A stretch of DNA of 64,000 bases from Anoxybacteroides tepidamans. Lineage in GTDB: Bacteria; Bacillota; Bacilli; Bacillales; Anoxybacillaceae. Both the position numbers and the translations under genes were made by a program. Positions 25,069-30,623 of this stretch are shown one piece after another; positions within the stretch are counted from its first letter, which is position 1; the number at the start of each line of letters is the position of its first letter. The DNA is taken from the NCBI RefSeq assembly GCF_014201465.1, contig NZ_JACHEP010000001.1, forward strand, positions 352,833-416,832. Direction: 5' to 3'. Below the pieces are notes generated by a model that was not told where the DNA came from, searched no databases, and saw only the letters and a list, made by a program, of their open reading frames with translations.

Positions 25069-25100
25069 AAAAAAGCGACTCGAAATACGAGTCGCTTTTT
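25069..25100. terminator. intrinsic terminator of the GHB/lactone operon
   Basis: AAAAAAGCGACTCG ... CGAGTCGCTTTTT, 22 bp past the stop of the iron alcohol dehydrogenase gene. Nearly identical to the terminator at 30592-30623. Confidence 0.8.
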
Positions 25101-25122: not shown

Positions 25123-26304
25123 TTATTTCGGCTCGGTTATTATCCCAGAAAAGGCAGATTGGTAGATTGTTCTTATATCGTGTTCTTGCAACAGCAAAGG
25201 ACTGCGCGCGAGTAATCGCTTTTGTTTCACCGCATCTTCTGTTAAACTCTCCAGAGCAGTTTCTTGTATTCCAAATCCTCCTAACGTTTTCGGAATCCCT
25301 ACATCATCGACGAGACGTGTAAGTTCCTCAACACATCGATAAGAAGCTTCTTCTTCAGAAAGATAACTCGAATTTCCGCCTAAAGCATTCAAAATATCCG
25401 CCATACGTTTCGTGCAGCTTTTTCGAATATATCCCATTACATACGGAAGTAATACAGCATTTGATTCACCGTGTGGGATATGAAATTGTCCACCTAACGG
25501 ATAAGCCAATGCATGGACACTGGCGACGCCGGCGTTAAAAAAGGCTAATCCGGCTAAATAACTGCCATTGCTCATATCGATTCTCGCTTGCTTGTCTGTT
25601 CCGTTTTCTACCGCTTTTCGCAGTGAGCGGGCAATCAAACGAATCGCCTGCAGCGCCAAACCATCTGTCGTTGGACTTGCGTTAACAGAAATATATGCTT
25701 CTACCGCATGCGTCAGCGCGTCAATCCCCGTAGCAGCCGTGACACGCGGGGGAACGGAAATCGTTAACTCTGGATCGACAATTGCGACATCTGCTAAAAG
25801 ATGATCATGTGTGACAACGTCTTTCGTTGTATCTAAAGAAAGAACGGAAATGTTTGTGACTTCAGATCCTGTTCCTGATGTAGTCGGAATTAAAATTTTT
25901 GGCAATCCTTTTGTATTTACTTTTTTTGTTCCGGTTAGATTTAAATAATCAGCAACCTTTCCTTCATGCATCGCTAAAACTGCGGCCAGCTTCGCCAAAT
26001 CCATTGCACTTCCACCGCCGACGCCAATAACCATATCAAAGTTGCCGTGACGCGTGAAAGAAACTAAATTCTCTCCAGTTTCTAACGGCGGTTCTGGAAC
26101 AACATCTGTGTAAACTTGAACATCATATCCTTGTTTCATAAGGGGAGCAGTCACCCGTTGAACTAATCCGATTTGTTCAAGAACAGGGTCTGTTACTACT
26201 AATATTTTCTGTGGAGAAAAGCGTCCAACCTCGGGAAGCAAATGTTCTAATGCCCCCCAGCCAACATAGCTTAGGGGAGTAAATGTGATTCGCGAAACAG
26301 TCAT
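25123..26304 (-). CDS. iron-containing alcohol dehydrogenase (probable 4-hydroxybutyrate dehydrogenase)
   Basis: Group III alcohol dehydrogenase of 393 residues. The nucleotide-binding GVGGGSAMDLAK motif and PTTSGTGSEVT are present, as are metal ligands in GIDALTHAVEAY (D and H), VHALAYPLGG and HIPHGESNAVLLP. An upstream extension of the frame overlaps the lactonase gene, but GGAGGG before ATG 26304 fixes the start (MTVSRITF). Third gene of the operon ALDH-lactonase-ADH. The same three enzyme types make up Agrobacterium blcABC (attKLM), where this enzyme oxidises 4-hydroxybutyrate to succinic semialdehyde. That role here is inference from synteny. Confidence 0.85.
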   Translation of the reverse strand: MTVSRITFTPLSYVGWGALEHLLPEVGRFSPQKILVVTDPVLEQIGLVQRVTAPLMKQGYDVQVYTDVVPEPPLETGENLVSFTRHGNFDMVIGVGGGSAMDLAKLAAVLAMHEGKVADYLNLTGTKKVNTKGLPKILIPTTSGTGSEVTNISVLSLDTTKDVVTHDHLLADVAIVDPELTISVPPRVTAATGIDALTHAVEAYISVNASPTTDGLALQAIRLIARSLRKAVENGTDKQARIDMSNGSYLAGLAFFNAGVASVHALAYPLGGQFHIPHGESNAVLLPYVMGYIRKSCTKRMADILNALGGNSSYLSEEEASYRCVEELTRLVDDVGIPKTLGGFGIQETALESLTEDAVKQKRLLARSPLLLQEHDIRTIYQSAFSGIITEPK

Positions 26305-26317
26305 CCGCTCTCCCTCC

Positions 26318-27166
26318 TTATTCGTAATATCCTTCCGTCGATTTACGAAACTGCTTAAACTGTTCCGAATCATGCCCAAACCAAACTTGTGAATTCGTTT
26401 CTTTCGCAATTCGACGTATTCTTTCAACAGTATTCATATAACCGAGGGAGTCATAGATAATACCCGGCGGCTTAATCGGTGGCCCATAACTTTCCGCAGT
26501 GTAAATGGCGTCAGAAGCAAGAATAATTCCACCGGTTTCAGATAGTTCCACATGCAATCCAAGCATCCCCCATGCATGTCCGCTCCCAAAATTCAGAACT
26601 TTGATTCCATCCGCAAGTAACAGCTGATCTTCATGCCGCTTGACTGTCCGCCATTGAAGGTTATTTTTGATCCATGCATCAATATCCGCCCAAATATACG
26701 CACCTTCTTTTTGATTACGTGCATAACATTGAAGTGTGCCGTTTAATTCATCCTCATGTACAATAATCGTTGCATTTGTAAACATTTCTAAACAACCTGC
26801 ATGGTCTAAATGAAGATGCGAAGCAACGACATATTGAATATCTTCTGGTCTTACTCTTAACTGTTCTAGTCGATTGTGAAGGTAACACTCTTCGCTTGCC
26901 GTCCATGGAAACATTTGCTGCGTCGATTCTGCCCAGCGTCCTTGAGGTCCCATCGAGTTTGGATTGCAAGCCGTATCAAAAAGAATTTTTCCTTCTGGAT
27001 GATCAATTAAAACTGTATAAATTGGAAATTCTACAAATTCCGTTTGTGCATTCGGATTGTGAATCGTCGCTGGATTATGCATCGCGATCATCCAGTTTTT
27101 ATCCATTCTCATTCGTCCATTATCCATTACATAAAGTTTTGGACGTGGTTTAATAATATTTGACAT
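26318..27166 (-). CDS. metallo-beta-lactamase-fold lactonase (AttM/BlcC, AHL lactonase type)
   Basis: 282 residues of the N-acyl-homoserine-lactonase / gamma-lactonase family. The dinuclear zinc motif is SHLHLDHAG (H117, H119, D121, H122). Further ligands are in GSGHAWG (H near 199), ASDAIYT (D) and WFGHDSEQ (H near 266). There is no signal peptide. GAGGAGG precedes the ATG. It lies between the aldehyde and alcohol dehydrogenase genes. In the blc/att operon the homologous enzyme opens gamma-butyrolactone to 4-hydroxybutyrate and can also hydrolyse acyl-homoserine lactones. Substrate here is untested; catabolism is favoured over quorum quenching by the gene context. Confidence 0.85.
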   Translation of the reverse strand: MSNIIKPRPKLYVMDNGRMRMDKNWMIAMHNPATIHNPNAQTEFVEFPIYTVLIDHPEGKILFDTACNPNSMGPQGRWAESTQQMFPWTASEECYLHNRLEQLRVRPEDIQYVVASHLHLDHAGCLEMFTNATIIVHEDELNGTLQCYARNQKEGAYIWADIDAWIKNNLQWRTVKRHEDQLLLADGIKVLNFGSGHAWGMLGLHVELSETGGIILASDAIYTAESYGPPIKPPGIIYDSLGYMNTVERIRRIAKETNSQVWFGHDSEQFKQFRKSTEGYYE

Positions 27167-27188
27167 AAAAGCATCCTCCTCTTCCCTT

Positions 27189-28622
27189 TTAAAAGTCAGT
27201 TTTTATAGAAACTAGCTTTAACTCTGTCATTTCTTGGATAGCATACTTCACTCCTTCTCGTCCGTAACCGCTTTCTTTTACTCCTCCATAAGGCATATGA
27301 TCGACACGAAAAGTAGGAATATCATTCACAATGACTGCACCTGACTCAATGTGCCGTGCTGCATATAAAGCATGATGAATATTCGTTGTGTAAATGCCGA
27401 TATTTAGTCCATATAAAGAGTCATTGACCATTTCAATCGCTTCTTGCAATTCGCGATACGGAACAATTGAAACAACTGGAGCAAACACTTCTTGGCACGA
27501 AACGGCCATCTCTTTTTTTACATCGAGTAAAACTGTAGGAGCATACACTGACCCGTTTCGCACTCCGCCTAGTCCAATTTTCGCTCCTGCCCGAACGGCT
27601 TCAGCGATCCATGATTCAATCCTCTCTGCTTCTCTCTGATGAATCATTGCACTTATATCCGTATCTTCATCTAAAGGATCACCGACTTTTAGCTGGCTTG
27701 CGCGTTCAATAAAACGCTTACAAAATTCTTTATAAATGGTTTCATGTACGTAAATGCGTTGAAGCGAAATGCATACTTGTCCCGCGAACGAAAACGCTCC
27801 TTCAACGCAACGGGGTATAATTTTGTCTAGCGGTACGTCCGGCTCGACAATGAGCGCTGAGTTAGAACCGAGCTCCAACGTCACTTTTCGTAATCCCGCT
27901 TTTTGTTTAATGAGTTTTCCGACAGCGGCACTTCCGGTAAATGTTATTTTTTTCACTCTTTCATCGGTCAACAGAGCCTCACTCAACTCCCTGCCGCTTC
28001 CTGTTATAACCTGCAATGCTCCATCTGGAAGCCCTGCTTCTCGGAAAATTTCAGCGATTGCTAGTGCACTCAAAGGTGTTTGTTCAGCTGGTTTTAATAC
28101 GACTGTATTCCCGGCAGCAAAAGCCGGACCGAGTTTATGGGCAACCAAATTAAAAGGAAAATTAAACGGAGTAATCGCAACAACAACTCCTAGCGGTTCG
28201 CGCCATGTGATCCCAACCCTTCCTTCCCCACCTGGAGCAGCATCCATCGGGATCGTTTCTCCGTAAATCCGTTTCGCCTCTTCTGCTGAAAATTGATACG
28301 TAACAATTGTCCTTTCTAATTCCCCTCGGGCAGTACGAATCGGCTTTCCTGCTTCTTTAGCAACAATCCGTGCCAGCTCTTCCTTGCGTTCTTTCAATAA
28401 CTGTACGACACGAAATAAAATTTCCGAGCGTTGATGAGCAGTCAGCGTTTTCATCGTTTGAAAAGCCCGTTGCGCACCAAAAATCGCCTTCTCCACATCG
28501 TCTGCATCCGCCATACTGATATGCGCTATGAATTGGCCATCGTAAGGAGCGCGCAATTCATACGTTCGCTGCTTTTTTAACCACTTTCCATCAATCAATA
28601 ATCCTTTCGCTTCATTTTGCAA
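27189..28622 (-). CDS. NAD(P)-dependent aldehyde dehydrogenase (probable succinic semialdehyde dehydrogenase)
   Basis: 477 residues, normal for the ALDH family. TPFNFPFNLVAHKLGPAF and FTGSAAVGK (cofactor binding), TLELGSNSAL (catalytic glutamate) and FSFAGQVCISLQR (catalytic cysteine) are all present. The open frame extends 49 codons further upstream, but that stretch crosses the sigma54 promoter. AAAGGAGG ten bases before a TTG at 28622 gives the correct start (LQNEAKGLLIDG). First gene of the operon with the lactonase and the iron alcohol dehydrogenase, so it would oxidise succinic semialdehyde to succinate and feed the TCA cycle, by analogy to AttK/BlcA. Confidence 0.86.
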   Translation of the reverse strand: MQNEAKGLLIDGKWLKKQRTYELRAPYDGQFIAHISMADADDVEKAIFGAQRAFQTMKTLTAHQRSEILFRVVQLLKERKEELARIVAKEAGKPIRTARGELERTIVTYQFSAEEAKRIYGETIPMDAAPGGEGRVGITWREPLGVVVAITPFNFPFNLVAHKLGPAFAAGNTVVLKPAEQTPLSALAIAEIFREAGLPDGALQVITGSGRELSEALLTDERVKKITFTGSAAVGKLIKQKAGLRKVTLELGSNSALIVEPDVPLDKIIPRCVEGAFSFAGQVCISLQRIYVHETIYKEFCKRFIERASQLKVGDPLDEDTDISAMIHQREAERIESWIAEAVRAGAKIGLGGVRNGSVYAPTVLLDVKKEMAVSCQEVFAPVVSIVPYRELQEAIEMVNDSLYGLNIGIYTTNIHHALYAARHIESGAVIVNDIPTFRVDHMPYGGVKESGYGREGVKYAIQEMTELKLVSIKTDF

Positions 28623-28665
28623 TTTTCCGCTACCTCCTTTCTCGTTTAAATTCAACCTATTATAG

Positions 28666-28682
28666 TGCAAATACCGTGCCAA
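28666..28682 (-). promoter_or_regulatory. sigma54 promoter of the GHB/lactone operon
   Basis: On the minus strand TTGGCACGGTATTTGCA is essentially the full sigma54 consensus, with GG and GC 12 bases apart. It lies about 45 bp upstream of the TTG start of the aldehyde dehydrogenase. Confidence 0.92.
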
Positions 28683-28733
28683 TGGTAAAATCGCTATATA
28701 AAAAGGATTTTTTATACGTTCTTTACCGAAAAC

Positions 28734-28749
28734 GGTGAAAAAGGTCACC
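28734..28749. promoter_or_regulatory. candidate enhancer site for the divergent activator
   Basis: GGTGA-N6-TCACC is a 16-bp inverted repeat about 55-70 bp upstream of the -24 box of the operon. Additional TTCACCAT half-sites occur at about 28799 and 28821, and ACCGAAAACGGT (28725-28736) overlaps it. Clustering of GGTGA/TCACC in the divergent gap points to activator binding, an inference. Confidence 0.5.
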
Positions 28750-28855
28750 ATATGAAAGGAATTGCCCAATCAACGACGAATAAATAAGTGTTGAATAAAT
28801 TCACCATATTTTTGAATATTTTCACCATCATAAATAATGAGGGGGATTTTTTAAT

Positions 28856-30541
28856 ATGACGACTGCTTTCATTGATCCTGAAATATTAAAAAATATTTTT
28901 TCTTCCATCAGTAATGGTGTGGTCGTGATTGATCGGAGTAGAAATATTTTATTCATCAACTCATCAGCAAAAAAACTTCTTCAAATTGAACACGAGCGTT
29001 GGGAAGGAAGAGATATTCGCGAACTTATTCCTAACACACAACTTCCCTATGTATTAGAAAGTGGAGAAAGTTCCATTGGTGTAAAAATGAACATCGGAGG
29101 ACGTCAATGTCTCGTCAATCGAACTCCATTATATCGTGACGGGGAATTAATTGGAGCAATCGGTGTCCTACAAGATATATCAGAAATGGAACATTATCAT
29201 TCTCTTTTGAAACAAATGGAAACGATTATTGAATTCTCGACTGATGGCATTTATGTTGTCGATCAAAACGGTATTACACTAATGGTAAACTCTGCTTACG
29301 AAATGATGACGGGATTCCGGAGAGAAGAGCTAATTGGCAAGCATATGCAGAGTTTAGTCAATGAAGGATATTTTGATCAATCTGTTTCCCTCCTTGTTCT
29401 CAAACATAAAAAGCGCATTTCTATTTTACAAAAAATTGGTGGAAAAAAAGATGTAATTGTAACAGGGAACCCTGTCTTTAATCAACAAGGTGACATCGAA
29501 ATGGTCGTCACAAGTGTTCGAGACATCTCTCATCTTATTCAAATGAAAATCGAGCTAGAAAAAGCGAAAAGTTTCTCAGAAATGAGTCACCATCGTTATA
29601 CATTTTCTGTTGGTGATTCAGACGAAAAAATTGTATTTCGTAGTCACTCTATGAAACAAATCTTTGATAAAATGAAACAAATCGCTCCTTATCCAGCTAC
29701 AGTTTTACTAACTGGTCCATCTGGTGTAGGAAAAGAAGTCATTGCCAATTTTATTCACAATGTAAGTCCTCGAAAAGATCATCCATTTATTAAGGTAAAC
29801 TGCGGAGCTATTCCGGAAGCACTACTAGAATCTGAGCTATTTGGCTATGAAAAAGGGGCATTTACTGGAGCGCGGCAAGATGGAAAAATTGGTTTGTTGG
29901 AACTAGCGGACAAAGGAACGATCATGCTTGATGAAATTGGGGAAATGCCATTATCGCTACAAGTAAAGCTATTAAGAGTACTGCAAGAAAAACAAGTTCA
30001 ACGAATTGGAAGTCATAAAACAAAAAAACTAGATGTACGTATCATTGCAGCAACAAATCAAAATTTGAAAGAACTTATTTCTCAAGGAAAATTTCGTGAA
30101 GATCTATATTACAGACTGCAAGTCATTGAAATATATATCCCACCGTTATGTGAGCGCCCGGAGGATATCGAGCCATTACTTGATCACTATTTTTCATTTT
30201 ACTGTAAACTATACCGTATAAATAAACATCTATCCCCTAAAACAAAAGAAATTTTACAACGCTATCATTGGCCGGGAAATGTAAGAGAGTTAAAAAATCT
30301 TATGGAAAATATGGTCGTTTCTATTCCATCACAATTCATCGAACCTCGCGACCTTCCATTGCATATTCATGATCAAGTCACAACAACATATTCCCTCACC
30401 CTCAAACAACAGATTGAGCAATTTGAAAAACGAATCATTCAAGAAGCGATTCAAAAATACTCATCCGTGCGAAAAGCAGCTAAACAATTAGGAATTGATC
30501 ATTCTACATTAGTAAAAAAATTAAAAAAATGGAAAACATGA
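28856..30541 (+). CDS. sigma54-dependent activator with two PAS domains
   Basis: 561-residue enhancer-binding protein. PAS-1 is at about 10-108 and PAS-2 at about 120-228 (the second ending VTSVRDISHL). The AAA+ domain has Walker A GPSGVGKE at 287-294, GAFTGA at 334-339 and a DEIGEMPL Walker B region. A C-terminal Fis-type helix-turn-helix reads VRKAAKQLGIDHSTLVKKL. GAGGGGG precedes the ATG. It is divergent from the lactonase operon, which has a consensus sigma54 promoter, so it is the likely activator. It is a paralogue of the activator at 950-2374, with one more PAS domain. The PAS ligand is unknown; 4-hydroxybutyrate or a semialdehyde is possible. Confidence 0.92.
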   Translation: MTTAFIDPEILKNIFSSISNGVVVIDRSRNILFINSSAKKLLQIEHERWEGRDIRELIPNTQLPYVLESGESSIGVKMNIGGRQCLVNRTPLYRDGELIGAIGVLQDISEMEHYHSLLKQMETIIEFSTDGIYVVDQNGITLMVNSAYEMMTGFRREELIGKHMQSLVNEGYFDQSVSLLVLKHKKRISILQKIGGKKDVIVTGNPVFNQQGDIEMVVTSVRDISHLIQMKIELEKAKSFSEMSHHRYTFSVGDSDEKIVFRSHSMKQIFDKMKQIAPYPATVLLTGPSGVGKEVIANFIHNVSPRKDHPFIKVNCGAIPEALLESELFGYEKGAFTGARQDGKIGLLELADKGTIMLDEIGEMPLSLQVKLLRVLQEKQVQRIGSHKTKKLDVRIIAATNQNLKELISQGKFREDLYYRLQVIEIYIPPLCERPEDIEPLLDHYFSFYCKLYRINKHLSPKTKEILQRYHWPGNVRELKNLMENMVVSIPSQFIEPRDLPLHIHDQVTTTYSLTLKQQIEQFEKRIIQEAIQKYSSVRKAAKQLGIDHSTLVKKLKKWKT

Positions 30542-30591: not shown

Positions 30592-30623
30592 AAAAAAGCG
30601 ACTCAACAAACGAGTCGCTTTTT
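30592..30623. terminator. bidirectional terminator between activator and antiporter genes
   Basis: AAAAAAGCGACTC ... GAGTCGCTTTTT between the converging activator and antiporter genes. Same stem as the terminator at 25069. Confidence 0.8.

Follow-up and report, generated by a model that had tools for sequence, protein, structure and literature searches.

A GcL-type lactonase in a probable sigma54-controlled operon for lactone catabolism in Anoxybacteroides tepidamans

We describe a locus of Anoxybacteroides tepidamans, a heat-loving soil bacterium, in which the gene of a lactonase of the AhlS/GcL family lies between those of an aldehyde dehydrogenase (ALDH) and an iron-containing alcohol dehydrogenase (Fe-ADH), behind a sigma54-type promoter and divergent from a gene for a sigma54-dependent activator. 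The locus belongs to a stretch of 64,000 nucleotides (assembly GCF_014201465.1, contig NZ_JACHEP010000001.1, positions 352,833 to 416,832 of the forward strand), hereafter the window, within a 3.39 Mb genome of 54 contigs. We consider it probable that the three enzymes form an inducible, sigma54-controlled operon which converts a small lactone to a central metabolite, as a Gram-positive variant of the Agrobacterium blc system. This would place a well-known quorum-quenching enzyme in a catabolic operon: GcL has been much studied and engineered, and quorum quenching is still named as perhaps its native function in a recent study (PMC11423328).

Results

A probable three-enzyme operon lies divergent from an activator gene

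An initial annotation, made from the DNA letters alone, had placed four genes here and read them as a three-enzyme operon with a divergent activator. Open reading frames and domain scans bear out the four genes and their arrangement at the same coordinates. The features of the locus are as follows.

25123 to 26304, minus strand: Fe-ADH (P0002; Pfam Fe-ADH and ADH_Fe_C), a proposed 4-hydroxybutyrate (omega-hydroxyacid) dehydrogenase
26318 to 27166, minus strand: AhlS/GcL family lactonase (P0001; NF047976, PDB GcL, HLHLDH)
27189 to 28622, minus strand: ALDH (P0003; Pfam Aldedh), TTG start, a proposed ALDH21-like succinic semialdehyde dehydrogenase
28666 to 28681, minus strand: -24/-12 sigma54 promoter TGGCAC-N5-TTGCA, an exact match, matched as TGGCACGGTATTTGCA
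28734 to 28749, no strand: proximal candidate activator site GGTGA-N6-TCACC, an exact dyad centred 60 bp upstream of the -24 element
28790 to 28805, no strand: distal candidate activator site, dyad with 1 mismatch
28811 to 28826, no strand: distal candidate activator site, dyad with 2 mismatches, 21 bp from the 28790 to 28805 site
28856 to 30541, plus strand: divergent sigma54-dependent activator with two PAS domains (P0004; Pfam domains, GAFTGA, Walker A)

On the minus strand ALDH, lactonase and Fe-ADH follow one another with intergenic gaps of 22 and 13 bases. A generic terminator scan, which also left out both hairpins flanking the locus, found no terminator-like site between the three genes, and we infer that they are co-transcribed as one operon. 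The ALDH most likely starts with the TTG at 28622, preceded by AAAGGAGGTAGCG, and the Fe-ADH with the ATG at 26304, preceded by GGAGGGAG.

Promoter and upstream dyads accompany the activator

The divergent gene, annotated initially as a double-PAS sigma54 activator, has the parts expected of one. Pfam recognised PAS in two stretches, Sigma54_activat, AAA_lid_14, HTH_50 and HTH_8; the GAFTGA loop is found at residue 334, the Walker A motif reads GPSGVGK and the helix-turn-helix (HTH) is of the Fis type. A profile search with the rpoN model gave one match in the genome. The -24/-12 promoter, claimed as near-perfect at 28666 to 28682, proved to be exact at 28666 to 28681, 43 bases before the ALDH start, and has GG at -24 and GC at -12 in the fixed spacing of such promoters. 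It is the sole exact match in the window, where 0.04 would be expected by chance and at least one occurred in 3 of 100 shuffles. Matches with up to two mismatches were at chance level (32 against 30.4 expected), and for this reason the weight of the promoter call lies on its exactness, position and conservation.

Conservation was assessed in relatives, namely the best 80 of 151 lactonase loci from one scan (at least 78% identity), 38 of which carry the activator near the lactonase. A search of the 400 bases ahead of the first gene found a -24/-12 element with no or one mismatch in 36 of the 38 activator loci (19 exact) versus none of 41 loci without activator, L084 being left out of the 80 for want of upstream sequence. 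The Fisher p of about 2e-20 for this association is overstated because the loci are related. Both exceptions, L035 and L038, have two mismatches in this span; in L035 an exact site lies beyond the 400 bases. Sigma54 control of the operon, though predicted, is strongly supported by this pattern.

The dyad GGTGA-N6-TCACC was found in exact form in 34 of 39 upstream regions, the window's and those of the 38 activator loci, whereas 30 rounds of dinucleotide shuffling yielded none. Measured from the -24 element, the dyads of the 39 regions cluster at upstream distances of about 60, 116 and 137 bp; the window holds one exact and two degenerate copies, and the regions of L038 and L060 showed no dyad within two mismatches. 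The dyad is likely the site of the activator. The genome contains one other exact copy (C6:122907), which lies inside an open frame. It was rejected as a member of the regulon: within the 2.3 kb inspected, the sole -24/-12 element with up to two mismatches lies some 850 bp away. Because this second copy is intragenic, the activator may have no target besides this operon, as judged from exact copies, which the search covered. The conserved dyad also points to a promoter for thermophilic Bacillales that would be ready to use, inducible and possibly confined to a single target.

The activators themselves fall into two kinds. Of the 39, 25 can be aligned with more than 90% of the window activator. 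A shorter form, with 457-494 residues in the frame and a match to about 79-82% of the window protein, accounts for 13 of the remaining 14, which would fit the absence of the first PAS domain. In five genomes of the order sample described below, the activator match begins only at residue 114-118. The fourteenth, L057_18, is an additional activator in its locus and more distantly related. In four of the 80 loci, all from Paenibacillus (L040, L049, L055 and L061), a sigma54 factor gene adjoins the activator; the single member scanned, that of L049, has all three Pfam sigma-54 factor domains.

Lactonase, activator and dehydrogenases occur together

The initial annotation had called for a homologue search on the pairing of activator and operon, and the pairing recurs. 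Beyond the 38 loci above, the lactonase occurs in 11 of 41 genomes of the family and the activator in the same 11. An alcohol dehydrogenase (ADH) stands 3' of the lactonase in all 36 activator loci that extend past it, 29 times an Fe-ADH and 7 times a zinc ADH, the remaining two loci stopping at a contig edge. An ALDH of the window type is encoded in 24 of the 38 and a classical succinic semialdehyde dehydrogenase (SSADH) in 6, which leaves 8 without a full-length ALDH. In L035, a close relative of the window, the ALDH is reduced to an 89-residue remnant, and in genome G035 a 61% identical ALDH paralogue follows the Fe-ADH instead.

An independent, evenly drawn sample of 397 genomes of the order yielded the lactonase in 23 (E-value up to 1e-60). 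All 22 lactonase loci other than the window have a dehydrogenase within 1.5 kb on either side: 14 an Fe-ADH, 5 a zinc ADH and 3 an ALDH only, these last three with lactonases 65-69% and ALDHs 46-49% identical to those of the window. Close activators, scored with three candidates per genome at E-values up to 1e-180, so that distant ones were missed, were detected in 11 of the 397, and 10 of these 11 genomes also have the lactonase.

On a lactonase tree made by a quick method the context labels cluster (21 changes versus a shuffled mean of 47.9), with L112 counted as zinc ADH/SSADH type though its locus has no SSADH. Presence of the activator requires 6 changes, and its gain and loss are indistinguishable because the outgroups are too distant for rooting.

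The lactonase is of the GcL type

The enzyme had been labelled an AttM/BlcC-type lactonase, which is wrong. It passes the NCBIfam AhlS model NF047976 with 570 bits (cut-off 475) and fails the models for AttM (NF045700; 136.6 bits, cut-off 390), 4-pyridoxolactonase (114, cut-off 325) and AiiA (104, cut-off 375). It is 28% identical to BlcC and 44% to AiiB, carries the HxHxDH metal site as HLHLDH at residue 117, and has GcL as its best solved structure (PDB 6n9q, E-value 1e-191). The lactonase of Parageobacillus caldoxylosilyticus NBRC 107762 (locus L037) equals crystallised GcL at every residue over 282 positions and is 94% identical to that of the window. In this strain the activator is divergent from a lactonase-Fe-ADH pair with no ALDH, and a one-mismatch -24/-12 element and the dyads are present. 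With GcL's own gene beside an alcohol dehydrogenase and under a dedicated sigma54 activator, as predicted, the question of its native function can now be tested.

No kinetics of GcL on gamma-butyrolactone were found in the literature searched. AaL of Alicyclobacillus, which is 89% similar to GcL (PMC11423328), hydrolyses this lactone with a kcat of 23.5/s, a KM of 171 µM and a kcat/KM of 1.4e5 (PMC6062542).

The dehydrogenases and the exchange of the ALDH

The operon ALDH scores 405 bits against the SSADH model TIGR01780, below the cut-off of 646, and at 36% identity it is not an orthologue of Agrobacterium BlcA. The two carboxylate-binding arginine motifs of classical SSADHs (R213 and R334 in the human enzyme) are absent, and the operon ALDH has NLVAHK and GAFSFAGQVC. 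Its best PDB sequence match is plant ALDH21 (5mz5). Arginines at the ALDH21 chain positions 139 and 475 are aligned and kept in all 25 full-length ALDHs, window included, as are the histidine of NLVAHK and the catalytic cysteine and glutamate. In the ALDH21 structure these two arginines are reported to bind the carboxylate of succinic semialdehyde (SSA). A paralogue with 60% identity is present in 38 of the 41 family genomes (E-value up to 1e-150).

The most telling result came from loci in which the ALDH is exchanged. A cluster of 15 classical SSADHs comprises members from 6 activator loci, 4 lactonase-Fe-ADH loci and 5 loci with neither activator nor Fe-ADH. Both SSADH arginine motifs are found in all 15, and identity to BlcA, determined for two members, is 54%. 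Against the cut-off of TIGR01780, one of the three members scanned passes with 680 bits and two, at 639 and 613, miss by 7 and 34. Among the loci without activator, 9 have an Fe-ADH, and in four of these, which are Planococcaceae-like (L084, L104-L106), the classical SSADH then follows. That the operon ALDH is swapped for an SSADH is the best evidence for succinic (or glutaric) semialdehyde as the aldehyde of the pathway.

The Fe-ADH contains the motifs D-x3-H and H-x13-H, which we take to supply the metal ligands. It stays below the 4-hydroxybutyrate dehydrogenase model NF058672 (248 bits, cut-off 500). Identity to Agrobacterium BlcB is 41%, versus 33-39% to E. coli FucO, YiaY and EutG, and the pairwise scores are 272 versus 201-213 bits, which is weak evidence for BlcB as the nearest relative. 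A tree meant to place BlcB as the nearest relative was unusable, with long branches, BlcB in an unresolved fork and three of the genome's own paralogues present as fragments of 58-87 residues.

Proposed pathway

Taken together, these data suggest the following course, for which we infer the substrate, the direction of flux, the inducer and the binding of the dyads by the activator. The GcL-type lactonase would open gamma-butyrolactone, the substrate we propose, or a close gamma- or delta-lactone to the omega-hydroxyacid; the Fe-ADH would oxidise this to the semialdehyde, and the ALDH would convert SSA to succinate, which enters the tricarboxylic acid cycle. The double-PAS activator would bind the three GGTGA-N6-TCACC sites that precede the -24 element by 60, 116 and 137 bp. 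By analogy to GabR, one or both of its PAS domains might sense a pathway intermediate, the semialdehyde or the hydroxyacid, whereupon the activator would drive the sigma54 RNA polymerase. The initial annotation had proposed a three-enzyme set as in blcABC: the logic of the enzymes is supported, while the lactonase is of another family and the ALDH not the BlcA orthologue. Its interpretation is thus partly supported: the outline holds, the lactonase family does not.

Discussion

Several observations weigh against the proposed pathway. Neither dehydrogenase exceeds any NCBIfam cut-off, and no ALDH of this genome exceeds that for SSADH; the operon ALDH is the top scorer among 13 matches, which is compatible with a non-classical SSADH or with no SSADH at all. 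GcL's own locus is among the eight activator loci without full-length ALDH, and 42 of the 80 loci have no activator. One genome of the order sample, G244, has activator and Fe-ADH and no lactonase. Here (L153, 5015-10815) the promoter is kept, the ALDH is a piece of 277 residues without its N-terminal part, and the place of the lactonase before the Fe-ADH is taken by a 478-residue frame with no Pfam match. Enzymology adds to these points: the kcat/KM of AaL is about nine times higher for C4-acyl-homoserine lactone than for gamma-butyrolactone (PMC6062542), and AidP, a lactonase of Planococcus, is reported inactive on gamma-butyrolactone (PMC6240239).

The same architecture could serve a C5 substrate, with 5-hydroxyvalerate and glutarate semialdehyde as intermediates on the way from delta-valerolactone to glutarate, or handle a broad range of gamma- and delta-lactones. 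AaL speaks for this, and so against gamma-butyrolactone, with a kcat/KM for delta-valerolactone of 4.5e5, about three times its gamma-butyrolactone value (PMC6062542), as do bacterial SSADHs reported to oxidise glutarate semialdehyde (PMC11480449). However, the enzyme set is that of blcABC, whose substrate is gamma-butyrolactone (PMC5924552), and we regard a C5 route as unlikely. Lactaldehyde or 1,2-diol metabolism, in which lactaldehyde would be the substrate of both dehydrogenases and the lactonase would open some other lactone, would agree with the best NCBIfam models, lactaldehyde reductase for the Fe-ADH (312 bits) and lactaldehyde dehydrogenase for the ALDH (553 bits). Yet both scores remain under their cut-offs (523 and 650) and related loci use an SSADH instead. 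We know of no place for a lactonase in the lactaldehyde route, which we hold to be extremely improbable as the function of the operon.

Alternatively, the lactonase might natively quench quorum sensing and the dehydrogenases clear aldehydes and alcohols of unrelated origin. GcL is highly active on acyl-homoserine lactones (AHLs), and its authors call quorum quenching perhaps the native function (PMC11423328); a similar debate of quorum quenching versus catabolism surrounds BlcC of Agrobacterium (PMC5924552). In addition, 21 of the 80 loci combine the lactonase with a divergent HxlR-like gene and have neither activator nor Fe-ADH, which suggests that a lactonase beside such a gene has other regulation or another role. 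The strict coincidence of lactonase and activator in the family, the alcohol dehydrogenase in every activator locus that reaches past the lactonase and the exchange of the ALDH for an SSADH speak against this explanation, and we consider it very unlikely for the operon. These findings suggest that silencing the signals of other bacteria is not the main job of the lactonase.

The loci with the HxlR-like gene are mostly from Paenibacillus (e.g. L070, L078 and L110), the assignment to HxlR being made by Pfam on the one member scanned, that of L070. In Planococcus and close kin (L107, L109, L111 and L114), the lactonase gene lies behind genes for an amino-acid kinase (aspartokinase-like) and a homoserine dehydrogenase, as identified by Pfam on L107; these four loci have no activator and no ADH.

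Beyond the window, the catabolic reading can be extended to a general proposal, which we see as evenly balanced between right and wrong. In scattered Bacillales, the GcL/AhlS lactonases accompanied by dehydrogenases would catalyse the first step of a lactone catabolism that is mostly under sigma54 control and evolved separately from blc, with another lactonase family, ALDH and regulator. AHL hydrolysis would then be a side activity, and lineages without activator and dehydrogenases, many Paenibacillus among them, may use the lactonase otherwise.

Hairpins flank the locus on both sides.

25070 to 25100, no strand: hairpin with T-run 3' of the operon, a likely terminator (stem 25072 to 25098; stem search)
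30593 to 30623, no strand: hairpin with T-run 3' of the activator gene, its stem identical to that of the 25070 hairpin (stem 30595 to 30621; stem search)

The stem, AAAGCGACTC-N7-GAGTCGCTTT, has just two exact copies in the genome, one on each side of the locus. The matching hairpins might mark a mobile cassette; the 26 relatives compared, in which stems of at least 8 perfect pairs were considered, showed no such pair.

Comparison with known systems

Among the matches listed for GcL/AhlS lactonases in connection with gamma-butyrolactone, sigma54, operons or genomic context, this operon was described in no title and no abstract opening, subscription papers being outside the scope of the search; the word lactonase is absent from the sigma54 regulon papers PMC4428206 and PMC12316311. 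GcL (6n9q) and AaL (6cgy) have been studied as isolated quorum-quenching enzymes. Plant ALDH21, an NADP-dependent SSA dehydrogenase (PMC7823795), resembles the operon ALDH as its closest solved structure and in both kept arginines, and differs as a cytosolic enzyme of plants.

For the regulator, the nearest counterpart is GabR of Bacillus thuringiensis, a PAS-type sigma54 activator that responds to gamma-aminobutyric acid (GABA) and SSA (PMC4279683). By description the two share the PAS-AAA+-HTH architecture, SSA as a signal, which for the window activator is a proposal, and repeated upstream sites, while the gab cluster serves gabT and the GABA shunt rather than a lactone, and GabR has one PAS domain as opposed to two (PMC4279683).

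For the enzymes, it is the Agrobacterium blcRABC (attJKLM) locus, in which the same three enzyme types degrade gamma-butyrolactone and SSA and/or 4-hydroxybutyrate is the inducer (PMC5924552). Both loci have an ALDH, an Fe-ADH and a lactonase of the metallo-beta-lactamase fold in a row with a divergent regulator. The order in blc is ALDH-ADH-lactonase, in contrast to ALDH-lactonase-ADH here. The initial annotation had set an IclR-type regulator in Agrobacterium against a sigma54 activator in the window, and both hold: the IclR-type BlcR was seen beside blcABC, and Pfam identified the window activator. The operon would work like blc without being a member of it, since the two differ in regulator, in gene order, in the family of the lactonase and in the type of ALDH.

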